This document shows positions 13,709-18,594 of a DNA stretch of 64,000 bases, piece after piece; position 1 is the stretch's first letter, and every line of letters starts with the position of its first letter. Under the pieces are notes generated by a model. It worked only from the letters and a program-made list of their open reading frames with translations, was not told the DNA's origin and ran no database searches. A program made the position numbers and the translations under genes. Source of the DNA: Methanomicrobiaceae archaeon (GTDB taxonomy: Archaea > Halobacteriota > Methanomicrobia > Methanomicrobiales > Methanomicrobiaceae); contig JAFGNT010000003.1 of assembly GCA_016926855.1 (NCBI GenBank), positions 1 to 64,000 on the forward strand, written 5' to 3'.

Positions 13709-14494
13709 TCACAGCACTACGATCGCCACAAACGCCGCCACCAGCACCACCGCAACGGCTATCAACCCGCAATCGGCAGCCCCGAACGCCCTCTCCCCCG
13801 ACGGCGTCCGCTGCATGCTCCGGAGGCCCCGGAGGTCGATGGTGAGGCCCAAAACGTTCGCCTTCCCGAGGGCGTTGGAGACCAGCGGGATGATAATCGG
13901 GGTAAGGGCTTTCACCTTTCCGGTAACGCCCGCCCCGGGGTAATAGGCACGGGCGCGCTGGGCTTCCTGGATACGTTTCCCTTCGAGCTGCAGGCTTGGG
14001 ATGAACCGGATCGCGATCAGCAGCATGAGGGTGTAGTCCATCGGGAGGCGCAGTTTCCGGAGCGCCTCGACGAGGTCGCGGGGCTGGGTGGAGATGATCA
14101 TGAGCTGGAAGGCGAAGAGCATCGCGAAAAACCGGAGCGAGAGGATCATCGCGAACGTGATTGCGCCGGTGGTGATGGGAACGAATCCGCCGATTCCCGG
14201 CACGAACGGGGGAATCAGGGAGGCCACCGTCTCCCCGCCCTGCATCGTCAGTACGGTCAGGAGCAGGAGGCCCGCCGAGAGGACGATCAGCATGGGGACC
14301 TGCCTGAGGAGTTCCCGTGCAAACCTGCCGGCAACGGAGAGGATGAAGAGGACGGCGACCAGGGCCGCAAGCACGGCGGGATCCGTCGAGACCACCGCCA
14401 TGATGATGACAAGGACGATGAACGTGATCTTCACGAGTGCATTCATCCGGTGGAACGGCCCGTCGATTCGCAGGTACTGGAGCAGTTCGGCCAT
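13709..14494 (-). CDS. ecfT: ECF transporter membrane component EcfT
   Basis: The 261-aa product is the shared transmembrane scaffold of an energy-coupling-factor importer. Several hydrophobic segments are visible at the N-terminus (KITFIVLVIIMAVVSTDPAVLAALVAVLFIL), followed by a cytosolic part with LVEALRKLRLP and QEAQRARAYYP. The latter are the two Arg-containing coupling-helix motifs that contact the ATPases; the second reads ARA where ARG is usual. MAELLQY at 14494 is preferred over an upstream ATG at 14518, which would overlap the fusion gene. It follows the S-ATPase-ATPase gene by 2 bases. Confidence 0.92.
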   Translation of the reverse strand: MAELLQYLRIDGPFHRMNALVKITFIVLVIIMAVVSTDPAVLAALVAVLFILSVAGRFARELLRQVPMLIVLSAGLLLLTVLTMQGGETVASLIPPFVPGIGGFVPITTGAITFAMILSLRFFAMLFAFQLMIISTQPRDLVEALRKLRLPMDYTLMLLIAIRFIPSLQLEGKRIQEAQRARAYYPGAGVTGKVKALTPIIIPLVSNALGKANVLGLTIDLRGLRSMQRTPSGERAFGAADCGLIAVAVVLVAAFVAIVVL

Positions 14495-14496
14495 GT

Positions 14497-16533
14497 TTAT
14501 GCCCCCCCGCCGGTACACCCGCTATCGAGCGTAATCTTTCCCTGTTCCATTTTAATAATTCTCCGGGCGTGGTTCTGGACGATGCGCCTGTCGTGGCTCA
14601 CCATGATTACCGTGTGGCCCGCATCGGCGAGCCGTTCGAGGATTCCCATGATCCGCACCGCCTCGACGGAATCGAGTCCGGTTGTCGGTTCGTCGAGGAC
14701 GATCACCTCCGGGTGCATGGCAGTGACGCACGCAATGGCCAGCCGCTGCCTCTCACCCCGGCTCATGGCACGGGGAAAACTCCCTTTTCTGTTCAGGAGC
14801 CCGACCTCGTCGAGAACATCCGTGATGGCATCATCCGCATCGGCCTCTTTTCCGATATTTTTCAGGCCGAAGAGGATCTCCCTTTCCACCGTATCCTCGA
14901 AGAGCATGGTATCGGGATTCTGGAAGACGAGCCCCACATGGCGTGCAAGCTCTGTCACGGTCGCTCCCGCTGTATCCGTGCCGCAGACCCTCACCGTTCC
15001 CGATGTCGGGTGCAGAAGGCCGTTGAAGTGCTTGACGAGCGTCGTCTTTCCCGATCCGTTCTCACCGATGATCGCGAGCAGTTCGCCCGCTCCGATGTCG
15101 AGCGAAATTCCGTCCAGTGCACGGGTTTCACCGTACGCGTGCACGAGGTCACGCACCGAGATGACGGGAGGGCCGGCAGGAGGGCACGGCCCCGGGGCGG
15201 GGCCGGGCGCCTCTTCCGCGTCTTCGCGACCGAACTCGCTGAAATAGTCGTCTGCCGCGTATACACCTGTCAGGCGGCCCTTCTCGAGAAGTATCACCCT
15301 GTCGGCGATCCCGGCAAGCTCCTCCGGTTTCTGCTCCACGACAAGGATCGTCTTTCCGTCGGCCTTCAGGCGGGCGAGAATGCCGATGATTGTTTCCGTT
15401 GCCGTTTCGTCAAGCTCTGCGGTGGCTTCGTCGAGGATCAGGCACTCTGTTCCGGAAGCAAGGGTCGCCGCAAGGGATACACGCTGCTTCTGCCCGCCCG
15501 AGAGGGTGTGGGGAGGGCGGTACCGGAGATGGGCAATATCGGTCAGCTGCAGGATCGCTTCGAGGCGTTGCTTCACGTCGGATGACTCCATGCCGCGGTT
15601 TTCAAGACCCGAGAGCACCTCCTCCTCTACGGTGGTGAAGATCAGCTGCGCATCCGCGTCATCAAAGACCACGCCCACTGTTCTGCCGATCTCTCCCATG
15701 TCGCGGTACTCCGCGGCCTTTTTCCCGAAGAGTGTTATGCTCCCCCCGGTGATGCCTTCGTATTCGTGGTTCAGGATACCGGCTGCGGCAAGGCAGAAAG
15801 TGGTCTTGCCTGCTCCGGTGGCTCCGTTGATCAGCACGCACTGGCCGCGGGGGATGGTGAGCGTGATGCCGGAGAGTGCCGGTGTGTCCCCCCGGGGGTA
15901 CGTATAGGAGAAGTTATCGAAGGTAATCGCATCCCCGGCATCCGATGCGCCCTCTTCCGGCCGCATTCCCGGCAAGGGGGCGGACGCGGCCCCGTTCTCA
16001 CCCGCAGCCCCCCTCATCAGGATGCGTGATGCCGGGAACGAGAGGACCTGGGCAATCACTGCGTTCGCGATCGCCGTCAGAATGATGATGGGGGAAACTC
16101 CGATGATAAACGCTTCAATCGTAAAATGCTCTCCCGGCGGTGTAACCACCGAGGCGACGATGACCGCGAGGCTGACCAGCAGAAAGGTGAACCCGCTTGC
16201 GAGAGTCGCTATGAATGTCGCGATCCCCGGTGCAAGCGGTATGCGCCCGCGAAGCGCGGTGAACACGACGAGACAGACCAGCGCCCCGAGGGGTTCGCTG
16301 ATCAGGTTCGCGGGGGGAAAGATCGAGTGGCTGATCAGCGCCGACATGATACCGGCGACGATCCCAATTCCGAGTGCATCCTTTACTTTCGGGGCGATGA
16401 GGATGATTGCGAGACAGTACAGGGCGATGATTGGATTGGCGACTATCGCCCCCGGGATAATGTTTGAGAGGTACCGCAGAATCGCCCCGATGGCAAGCAG
16501 GATACCGGCAATGGCAAGGTCGCGTGATTTCAT
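14497..16533 (-). CDS. ECF importer fusion protein: S component + two ATPases
   Basis: The 678-aa protein joins three parts that are normally separate. Residues 1-175 form a membrane S component; its PKVKDALGIGIVAGIMSAL and IFPPANLISEPLGA segments resemble TrpP, as recalled without a search. ATPase 1 (about 201-435) has Walker A GATGAGKTT (237-245), LSGGQ (344-348) and LILDE (365-369). A proline-rich linker (443-456) leads to ATPase 2 (457-678) with Walker A GENGSGKTT (490-498), signature MSRGE (590-594) and VLDE (612-615). ATPase 1 lacks the Q-loop Gln (Asp291) and the H-loop His (Gln401); ATPase 2 retains Gln538 and His647 but has a degenerate signature. Tryptophan or a related aromatic compound is the inferred substrate. 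Confidence 0.9.
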   Translation of the reverse strand: MKSRDLAIAGILLAIGAILRYLSNIIPGAIVANPIIALYCLAIILIAPKVKDALGIGIVAGIMSALISHSIFPPANLISEPLGALVCLVVFTALRGRIPLAPGIATFIATLASGFTFLLVSLAVIVASVVTPPGEHFTIEAFIIGVSPIIILTAIANAVIAQVLSFPASRILMRGAAGENGAASAPLPGMRPEEGASDAGDAITFDNFSYTYPRGDTPALSGITLTIPRGQCVLINGATGAGKTTFCLAAAGILNHEYEGITGGSITLFGKKAAEYRDMGEIGRTVGVVFDDADAQLIFTTVEEEVLSGLENRGMESSDVKQRLEAILQLTDIAHLRYRPPHTLSGGQKQRVSLAATLASGTECLILDEATAELDETATETIIGILARLKADGKTILVVEQKPEELAGIADRVILLEKGRLTGVYAADDYFSEFGREDAEEAPGPAPGPCPPAGPPVISVRDLVHAYGETRALDGISLDIGAGELLAIIGENGSGKTTLVKHFNGLLHPTSGTVRVCGTDTAGATVTELARHVGLVFQNPDTMLFEDTVEREILFGLKNIGKEADADDAITDVLDEVGLLNRKGSFPRAMSRGERQRLAIACVTAMHPEVIVLDEPTTGLDSVEAVRIMGILERLADAGHTVIMVSHDRRIVQNHARRIIKMEQGKITLDSGCTGGGA

Positions 16534-16654
16534 AGGGATGCACTCCGGGAGTGATGTATCCTTGTGGATAGGTCTGTATATGTATGTCCATCATGGGTTT
16601 AAAATACTCCCATCATACTGCGGGCAACGATGAAAAAAGGGAAAATGAGTGGAT
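16534..16654 (-). promoter_or_regulatory. Spacer between the two S-component genes with repeats
   Basis: The stretch holds two copies of CCATCAT (16588-16594 and 16610-16616), 22 bp apart and flanking an AT-rich core TTTAAAATACT that could be a TATA region for the fusion gene. An 11-mer TATATGTATGT (16577-16587) recurs exactly at 17283-17293 in the promoter upstream of the paralogous S gene. An own promoter for the fusion gene is therefore possible. Confidence 0.4.
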
Positions 16655-17173
16655 TTATCTGCTCAGCACGCGCTCCGCGGGGAAGAACAGGATCTGGGTC
16701 ACCACCATGTTGAAGGCTGCCGTGATAAGCACGATCGGGAGGACTGCTACGAAGAATCCCATGATTGTCCCGGTCGGCGTGGCGACGATGGATGCGAGCA
16801 TCACGATCATCGAGACGAACACGAAGGAGAACCCGCTTGCACAGGTCGCAACAAACGTGGTGATGGCCGGTGAGAGCACTGTTCGCTCGCTGATCATTCC
16901 ATAGACGGCAGCACATACCAGAGCGCCGAGGGGCTCGCTGATCAGGTTTGCGGGCGGGAAGATCGAGTGGCTGATCAGCATGGAGAGCACCCCGGCGACG
17001 AGCCCGATCCCGGCAGCCTCCTTCATCGTCGGTCGGATAAGTATGATTGCGAGACAGTACAGTGCGATGACGGGATTCCCGACGATCGCACCGGGAAACA
17101 TGTTGAAGACAAACCTGAGTATCGCCCCGATGGCGAGCAGGATGCCGACGATTGCGATATCCCGTGATTTCAT
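16655..17173 (-). CDS. ECF transporter S component, TrpP-like (free paralogue)
   Basis: The 172-aa membrane protein is a close paralogue of the first 175 residues of the downstream fusion: both begin MKSRD(L/I)AI, share GILLAIGAILR, and share the 17-residue run SHSIFPPANLISEPLGA. Five or six hydrophobic segments are visible. S components bind the substrate and dock on EcfT. The resemblance to TrpP was judged from memory of the family pattern, so the substrate call is tentative. It is the first gene of the minus-strand ECF cluster and has no ATPase of its own. Confidence 0.8.
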   Translation of the reverse strand: MKSRDIAIVGILLAIGAILRFVFNMFPGAIVGNPVIALYCLAIILIRPTMKEAAGIGLVAGVLSMLISHSIFPPANLISEPLGALVCAAVYGMISERTVLSPAITTFVATCASGFSFVFVSMIVMLASIVATPTGTIMGFFVAVLPIVLITAAFNMVVTQILFFPAERVLSR

Positions 17174-17341
17174 CTGCGTTCACCCCGCCGCTCCGGTATG
17201 GCCGGGGAGATCTGCGCTCTGTGCGCCGGATGTGATGTACATGTCATAATCATCGAAGTACATTTTTGTACATCTGTGTATATATATGTATGTATTGCAC
17301 TTTCCCGTTTGTTTATCCCCCGGCGAATCATTATTTCATGT
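17174..17341 (+). promoter_or_regulatory. Divergent promoter with TRP-box-like TGTACA repeats
   Basis: Between the S-component gene (minus) and the deaminase (plus) lie two exact TGTACA hexamers (17236-17241 and 17267-17272) and one near match AGTACA (17257-17262). Each is followed by T, so GTACAT occurs three times, starting at 17237, 17258 and 17268 (spacings 21 and 10 bp, whole helical turns). TGTACA is the published TRP-box consensus of the archaeal regulator TrpY. A TATA-like GTATATATATG (17278-17288) serves the plus-strand gene. Confidence 0.6.
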
Positions 17342-17794
17342 ATGGATGCATTCATGCAGGCTGCGATTGCGGAAGCAGAAACCGGCCTTTCAGAGGGTGG
17401 CATTCCCATCGGTGCTGTACTCGTCCGGGACGGGCGTGTTATCGGCCGGGGGCATAACCGGCGGGTGCAGCTCTCCGATCCGGTACTGCACGCCGAGATA
17501 GACTGCCTTCGAAACGCGGGCCGCATCGGCAGCTACGCGGGCACTGTCCTGTATTCGACGCTGATGCCCTGTTTCCTCTGTGCCGGTGCGGTGGTGCAGT
17601 TTGGTATTCCCCGGGTCGTCGCCGGGGAGTCACGGAATTTTGCCGGGGCAAAAACGTTTCTCGAGGAACACGGTGTCGTGGTCGAAGACCGTGACCTCCC
17701 GGTGTGTGCGAAGATGATGGAGTCCTTCATCAGGGAGCACCCCGCGCTCTGGGACGAGGATATCGGGGAAGGAGACGGGGAGTGCTGTCCATAA
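17342..17794 (+). CDS. Nucleoside/cytosine deaminase family protein
   Basis: The 150-aa product is a zinc-dependent deaminase of the CDA superfamily. Zinc and catalytic residues are His50-Ala-Glu52 and Cys77-x-x-Cys80 (MPCFLCAGAVVQFGIPRVVAGE). The HAEIDCLRNAGR and FGIPRVVAGE segments resemble yeast-type cytosine deaminase more than tRNA adenosine deaminase TadA or guanine deaminase, but the substrate is not certain. ATG 17342 is chosen because it follows the TATA-like element by about 55 bases; upstream in-frame codons lie in the promoter. The 3' end overlaps the acetolactate decarboxylase gene by 13 bases. Confidence 0.85.
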   Translation: MDAFMQAAIAEAETGLSEGGIPIGAVLVRDGRVIGRGHNRRVQLSDPVLHAEIDCLRNAGRIGSYAGTVLYSTLMPCFLCAGAVVQFGIPRVVAGESRNFAGAKTFLEEHGVVVEDRDLPVCAKMMESFIREHPALWDEDIGEGDGECCP

Positions 17795-18594
17795 CAGGGT
17801 ACTCCCGGTACCTGGCGGTCGTAACCGTCGTGCTGGCGGCAGCCCTTGTTTTTATTCTCGCGACCGCACCGCAGGCGCCCGCTCCTGACCGCGATCTTCT
17901 CTTCCAGGTGTCCACCATCGACGCACTGCTCATCGGCGACTACGAAGGCAGTGTCACGTTTTCCGATCTCGGAAGCTACGGTGATTTCGGGCTCGGCACA
18001 TTTGATGCGCTCGACGGAGAAATGGTGGCGTTCGAGGGCACATTCTGGCAGGTACGGGCGGACGGGAGCGTGAATGCTGTTCCCGGCACGATGACCACGC
18101 CGTTTTCGGTCGTCACCTGGTTCGATCCCGACCGGACCTTCTCCCTCGACGGGCCCGTGAATCTTACGGGAATTGAATCGGCGGTGGATGCGCACCGGGA
18201 ATCACCCAACTACTTCTCAGCCGTGCTGGTCGACGGCACTTTTGATACCGTCACGGTGCGGAGCGTCCCGCGGCAGGAGGAGCCGTACCCGCCGCTTGCC
18301 GATGCCGTCCTGAACCAGAGTGTCTATACCTGCGCATCGGTCGAGGGGACTCTGGTAGGGTTCTGGTCTCCAGCCTATGTCAGCGGGATCAATGTGCCCG
18401 GATACCATCTGCATTTCATCAGCGATGACCGGACGATGGGCGGCCACGTGCTCGAATGCACGCTTCTGAGCGGTAATGTGGCGCTTGACACCACCCCGCG
18501 GTTCCAGATGGCCCTCCCTGATACCGTCTCGTTTTCATCCGCCGATCTGACCGGGGACCGGACAGATGAACTCGTAAAAGTAGAGAAAAAATAA
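17782..18594 (+). CDS. budA: Alpha-acetolactate decarboxylase, probably exported
   Basis: The 270-aa product is recognised by LFQVSTIDALLIGDYEGSVTFSDL, GDFGLGTFDALDGEMV and PGYHLHFISDDRTMGGHVL; the three zinc-ligand histidines are His209, His211 and His222. The enzyme turns acetolactate into acetoin. GTG 17782, behind GGAAGGAGA, is the chosen start. It gives an N-terminal hydrophobic segment (about residues 9-27: YLAVVTVVLAAALVFILAT) that reads as a signal peptide or membrane anchor, so the enzyme is probably outside the membrane. It overlaps the deaminase by 13 bases and is probably co-transcribed with it. Confidence 0.9.
   Translation: MLSITGYSRYLAVVTVVLAAALVFILATAPQAPAPDRDLLFQVSTIDALLIGDYEGSVTFSDLGSYGDFGLGTFDALDGEMVAFEGTFWQVRADGSVNAVPGTMTTPFSVVTWFDPDRTFSLDGPVNLTGIESAVDAHRESPNYFSAVLVDGTFDTVTVRSVPRQEEPYPPLADAVLNQSVYTCASVEGTLVGFWSPAYVSGINVPGYHLHFISDDRTMGGHVLECTLLSGNVALDTTPRFQMALPDTVSFSSADLTGDRTDELVKVEKK

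Follow-up and report, generated by a model that had tools for sequence, protein, structure and literature searches.

Does a group of TGTACA-type hexamers in front of an ECF importer operon place the uptake of tryptophan in a methanogen under the same control as its synthesis? The question arises from the window analysed here, by which we mean the whole 64,000-nucleotide stretch of contig JAFGNT010000003.1 from a Methanomicrobiaceae archaeon. The first-pass annotation had read the hexamers as binding sites of the regulator TrpY in front of a TrpP-like importer, and had named a genome without a trpY homologue, or trp promoters without TGTACA, as findings that would speak against this reading.

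The importer genes

The importer is encoded on the minus strand. Its first gene (16655..17173) specifies a 172 aa protein with six predicted membrane helices, S component 1 (S1), which by homology belongs to a TrpP-like family. The next gene encodes a protein of 678 aa that joins S component 2 (S2) to two ECF ATPase domains (14497..16533; ABC_tran matched twice, and ECF_ATPase in NCBIfam), and it is followed by the gene of a T component of the CbiQ family (13709..14518; PF02361, 3.3e-25), which completes the ECF importer. The AlphaFold model of S1 has six helices (pLDDT 85.7, pTM 0.82), and the best-matching folds in the PDB are all ECF S components (RibU, PanT, and ThiT), with TM values of 0.73-0.76 for RibU and PanT. 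With its modelled six-helix S fold, and with ECF ATPases and a T component in the operon, S1 is an ECF S component. The proposed resemblance to TrpP holds for the ATPase-linked S domain, which taken alone matches PF17099 (TrpP) at 30.1 bits against a Pfam cutoff of 27.2, and for several relatives that also pass, but it does not extend to S1, for which PF17099 gave no match. S1 and S2 are 62-63% identical, and S1 branches as a separate clade with support (99/98), distinct from S2 and from all single-S relatives; a somewhat different substrate for S1 is therefore possible. In one Methanomicrobiaceae genome a third, very diverged S component lies between S1 and S2 (L225 4618-5236).

An inverted repeat next to the S1 promoter

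The hexamers lie exactly where they had been annotated, with TGTACA at 17236-17241 and 17267-17272, AGTACA at 17257-17262, and start spacings of 21 and 10 bp. Only the pair at 17257 and 17267, however, forms what appears to be the functional inverted repeat, and the hexamer at 17236 is an extra half-site. We place the predicted TrpY-type operator at 17251..17273 on the minus strand, where it reads ATGTACAAAAATGTACTTCGATG (inverted repeat ATGTACA-AAA-ATGTACT followed by TCGATG), with the half-sites TGTACA (17267-17272) and, on the minus strand, TGTACT (17257-17262) separated by an N4 spacer. The S1 promoter has its TATA box at 17279..17287 (ATATATATA on the minus strand), assigned from its fixed spacing in aligned orthologous promoters, and the operator begins a few bp downstream of it; transcription of S1 would be expected to start near 17258. 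The additional half-site (17236..17241, minus strand) lies downstream of the operator, and in a by-eye comparison limited to two genomes its GTACATC is kept only in G101, the second genome of this genus. A weak second copy of the operator, ATGGACATACATATACAGACCTA, precedes S2 (16569..16591, minus strand; 2.4 bits in the window), and in other genera the same place holds a near-perfect palindrome (TTGATGTATAACAATATACATCAAAG in G119/G120 and CGATGAACATGTTTATACATCG in G110).

The bare count of TGTACA was rejected as evidence, being too weak: the window holds 10 copies where 4.5 are expected, a mild enrichment that 3 of 100 shuffles reached. A plain consensus pattern search allowing one mismatch was set aside as too weak as well. 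The 1.98 Mb genome has just 3 places where two TGTACA lie within 40 bp of each other, and the reversed control pattern gave none. The real evidence for the operator is its conservation rather than the number of hexamers. Scored with a 23-bp matrix built from the sites of other species, with the window site excluded, the operator reaches 26.2 bits, and the best score that the same matrix found across 100 shuffled windows was 20.0 bits (mean 6.8).

Conservation upstream of the transporter orthologues

Relatives of the S component are present in 179 of the 232 genomes of the order, and an operator of at least 8 bits lies upstream of 73 of the 78 named orthologues, mostly from Methanomicrobiales; Methanosarcina is among the operator-bearing orthologues, with a weaker site. 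Once the upstream regions are brought into one orientation, the common element is a TATA box followed by ATGNACA-N4-TRTNCAT(T)NATG, with half-sites 10 bp apart, and in 67 aligned orthologous promoters the TATA box precedes the operator at a fixed distance of 5-12 bp. The commonest half-sites in this set are TGAACA or TGTATA on the left and TATACA on the right, and exact TGTACA is limited to 7 of the left halves and 9 of the right. Thus the TGTACA hallmark, although found in the window operator, is not itself the conserved feature, because most orthologues have TGAACA or TGTATA instead. In genus g17, a sister-family lineage, both TrpY and the transporter are present, yet no operator was found directly upstream of the S gene.

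The genes divergent from the importer had also been proposed to share its control. These are a cytidine/tRNA-adenosine-type deaminase (17342..17794, plus strand; PF00383, 9.6e-23) and an acetolactate decarboxylase (17704..18594, plus strand; PF03306, 1.1e-79), the latter given as its longest ORF, with the true start probably further in. Apart from the window's own genome, the deaminase adjoins the operator only in three genomes of genus g6, and the decarboxylase has this position only in G101. Shared control is rejected as unsupported by the comparison, since neither gene is conserved beside the operator.

The operator at tryptophan genes

A sequence profile, R1, made from transporter operators only, was run over 28 genomes of the family. 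It matches the window operator with an E value of 8.6e-06, and its matches in the 28 genomes lie mainly at tryptophan genes. We read 59 R1 places away from the transporters; by our own count 14 of them precede trpE, 16 precede trpB2, 8 lie before an AMP-forming ligase, 3 before a methyltransferase and 2 before trpY, and 16 are without clear relation. For each gene we also compared the highest-scoring site in the 250 bp upstream with a 99% null. Across the family, 16 of 20 trpE genes and 21 of 22 trpB2 genes exceed it, where about 0.2 would be expected for each, and the four trpE genes without a site (G098, G099, G100, and G101) are each immediately preceded by a trpB2 gene of the same orientation. 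Control windows reached at least 12 bits in 3 of 462 cases, two of which are trp promoters themselves. The window's own genome has 17.2 bits before trpE, 16.1 bits before trpY, where the site would allow autoregulation, and a weak 6.1 bits before trpB2. TGTACA-type sites are hence found where the first-pass annotation had suggested looking for them, before trpE, both in the window's own genome and across the family, and also before trpB2.

These results bear on the suggestion that the repeats merely belong to the core promoter or are an AT-rich pattern that arose by chance. The site does adjoin the TATA box, and the TATACA halves look like TATA sequence. Nevertheless, the signal was not reproduced by shuffles that keep dinucleotide tendencies, by column-permuted matrices, or by the 462 control windows, and the element is found mainly at trp-related promoters, at varying positions relative to the start codon. 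On the shuffles, permuted matrices and control windows we reject a core-promoter or chance origin, which we regard as extremely improbable.

Several further operator-bearing loci were observed. The AMP-forming ligase (PF00501) carries the operator in eight family genomes (L072 3016-5206, L073, L076, L081, L086, L142, L143, and L145), and a KaiC-like ATPase follows it at several of these loci; the ligase possibly serves tryptophan salvage by activating aromatic acids. In three genomes (L132 2095-2403, L133 2076-2630, and L136 2044-2610) the operator stands at the start of a SAM-methyltransferase-like gene (HGYSETE...). Near-identical elements, TTTGTACAAATATGTACATTACAC..GGGTGTGTAA, occur at three places without trp genes in genus g5 (L077, L110, and L114), where they are perhaps a mobile element. 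In G115, an operator-type site lies at the start codon of the gene for a LysE-type-exporter-like protein (L124 1407-2030).

The TrpY-family regulator

The window's genome does encode a trpY homologue, as the first-pass annotation would have it, in a single copy (G000:C13:94794-95291) that matches NF053754 (TrpY_fam, NCBIfam) at 205.4 bits against a cutoff of 180. The protein has 166 residues with an ACT-like C-terminal part, and no relative of TrpY was found in the PDB. Proteins of this family were found in 202 of the 232 genomes of the order, and two R1 matches precede such genes (in G097 and G113), with only a half-site in the trpY promoters of many others. None of the findings that the first-pass annotation had named against its reading, insofar as sequence can address them, came true.

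According to Xie and Reeve (2005) and Karr et al. (2008), TGTACA is reportedly the TRP-box consensus of TrpY and trpB2 one of its targets. That consensus counts against the alternative that a regulator other than TrpY reads the sites, as do the trpY gene, single-copy and nearly universal in the order, and the occurrence of the site in the trpY promoter of several genomes. Such a regulator, which we consider quite unlikely, would be in keeping with G141 (85% complete), where an operator-like site is kept (L305) and no TrpY was detected, and with Thermococcus, where trp is controlled by a different regulator (PMC6737238). RbkR was considered in passing and rejected, as a literature search gave no comparable motif. 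We would like to note that TrpY-family membership alone is no proof of role, because the Thermococcus TrpY homologue does not control trp (PMC6737238). In Methanothermobacter, TrpY acts through TRP boxes as a repressor of its own gene and, with tryptophan, of the trp operon (PMC6737238). The link between TrpY and tryptophan that family membership alone does not give is supplied by the shared operator.

Tryptophan auxotrophs and the substrate

Both trpE and IGPS (trpC) are absent from G114, G116, G117, and G123, all four of which keep the transporter; such absences are to be taken with caution because some of the assemblies are partial drafts (89% completeness for the genome of the window itself). 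G114 is taken to be Methanomicrobium mobile, which requires tryptophan (PMC3629087) and which keeps TrpY, the transporter with its operator, and both S1 and S2. Retention of the importer in this tryptophan-requiring species is the strongest pointer to its substrate, a hint from gene content that it may carry tryptophan. Reduced tryptophan synthesis has also been reported for host-associated Methanocorpusculum (PMC10035134).

The operator could be real and tryptophan-regulated with only S2 carrying tryptophan, S1 being a diverged paralogue for the uptake of some other aromatic compound (indole, indoleacetate, anthranilate, or tyrosine). The separate clade of S1 and its lack of a TrpP match would fit such a division, and the AMP-forming ligase under the same operator in several genomes hints at aromatic-acid salvage; against it, the auxotrophic M. 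mobile retains both S components. On balance we think this division unlikely, though it is the alternative that we take most seriously.

Proposed mechanism

We conclude that the element is very probably a TRP-box-type operator of a TrpY-family repressor, and that the operon encodes a tryptophan-controlled ECF importer of tryptophan or a close indole compound, in one regulon with synthesis. TrpY would bind the inverted repeat a few bp downstream of the S1 TATA box, overlapping the expected start region, and with plentiful tryptophan, the presumed co-repressor, it would block transcription at the importer as at trpE, trpB2, and trpY, so that uptake and synthesis would form one regulon. The operon, in the order S1, S2 fused to two ATPases, and T, would then import tryptophan or a close indole compound. 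Tryptophan-controlled uptake, put forward as a coherent hypothesis in the first-pass annotation, is thus favoured at the level of sequence by the conservation of the operator, its sites at trp genes, and the presence of TrpY. Points against the TrpY reading in the window's own genome are the weak sites before S2 and trpB2.

More tentatively, and with rather less than even confidence, the TrpY regulon of Methanomicrobiales may be wider than known and serve tryptophan and indole salvage, comprising an importer whose two S components differ in specificity, trpB2, the AMP-forming aryl-acid ligase with its KaiC-like partner, and the methyltransferase; in host-associated auxotrophs that have lost the trp operon it might persist purely as a switch for uptake.

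Comparison with known systems

In the open literature we found no paper linking TrpY to an ECF transporter. On the proposed reading, archaeal tryptophan control would reach from synthesis to uptake, a likely substrate could be assigned to an ECF importer widespread in one methanogen order, and a molecular reason could be offered for M. mobile living as a tryptophan auxotroph. A precise 23-bp site and a named candidate regulator are now defined.

TrpP in bacteria is controlled by other means, such as TRAP in Bacillus. Similar to TrpP (PF17099), a putative tryptophan S component, S2 and most relatives share the family match, the ECF context, and the S fold; unlike it, S1 has no match to the model, and the locus combines an S-ATPase-ATPase fusion with two S genes. 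The likeness to Methanothermobacter thermautotrophicus in trpB2 and TGTACA goes back to what Xie and Reeve (2005) and Karr et al. (2008) are said to have described. Shared with the TrpY/TRP box regulon of that species are a TrpY-family repressor gene, TGTACA-type boxes, and the trp operon and trpY as targets (PMC6737238), whereas here a transporter is added, trpY was not beside trpE at the loci read, and the half-sites vary (TGAACA, TGTATA, and TATACA) and form an N4 inverted repeat. Tar (TK0271), the aromatic amino acid regulator of Thermococcus, likewise exemplifies archaeal control of tryptophan genes, but it is an activator and a different regulator (PMC6737238).
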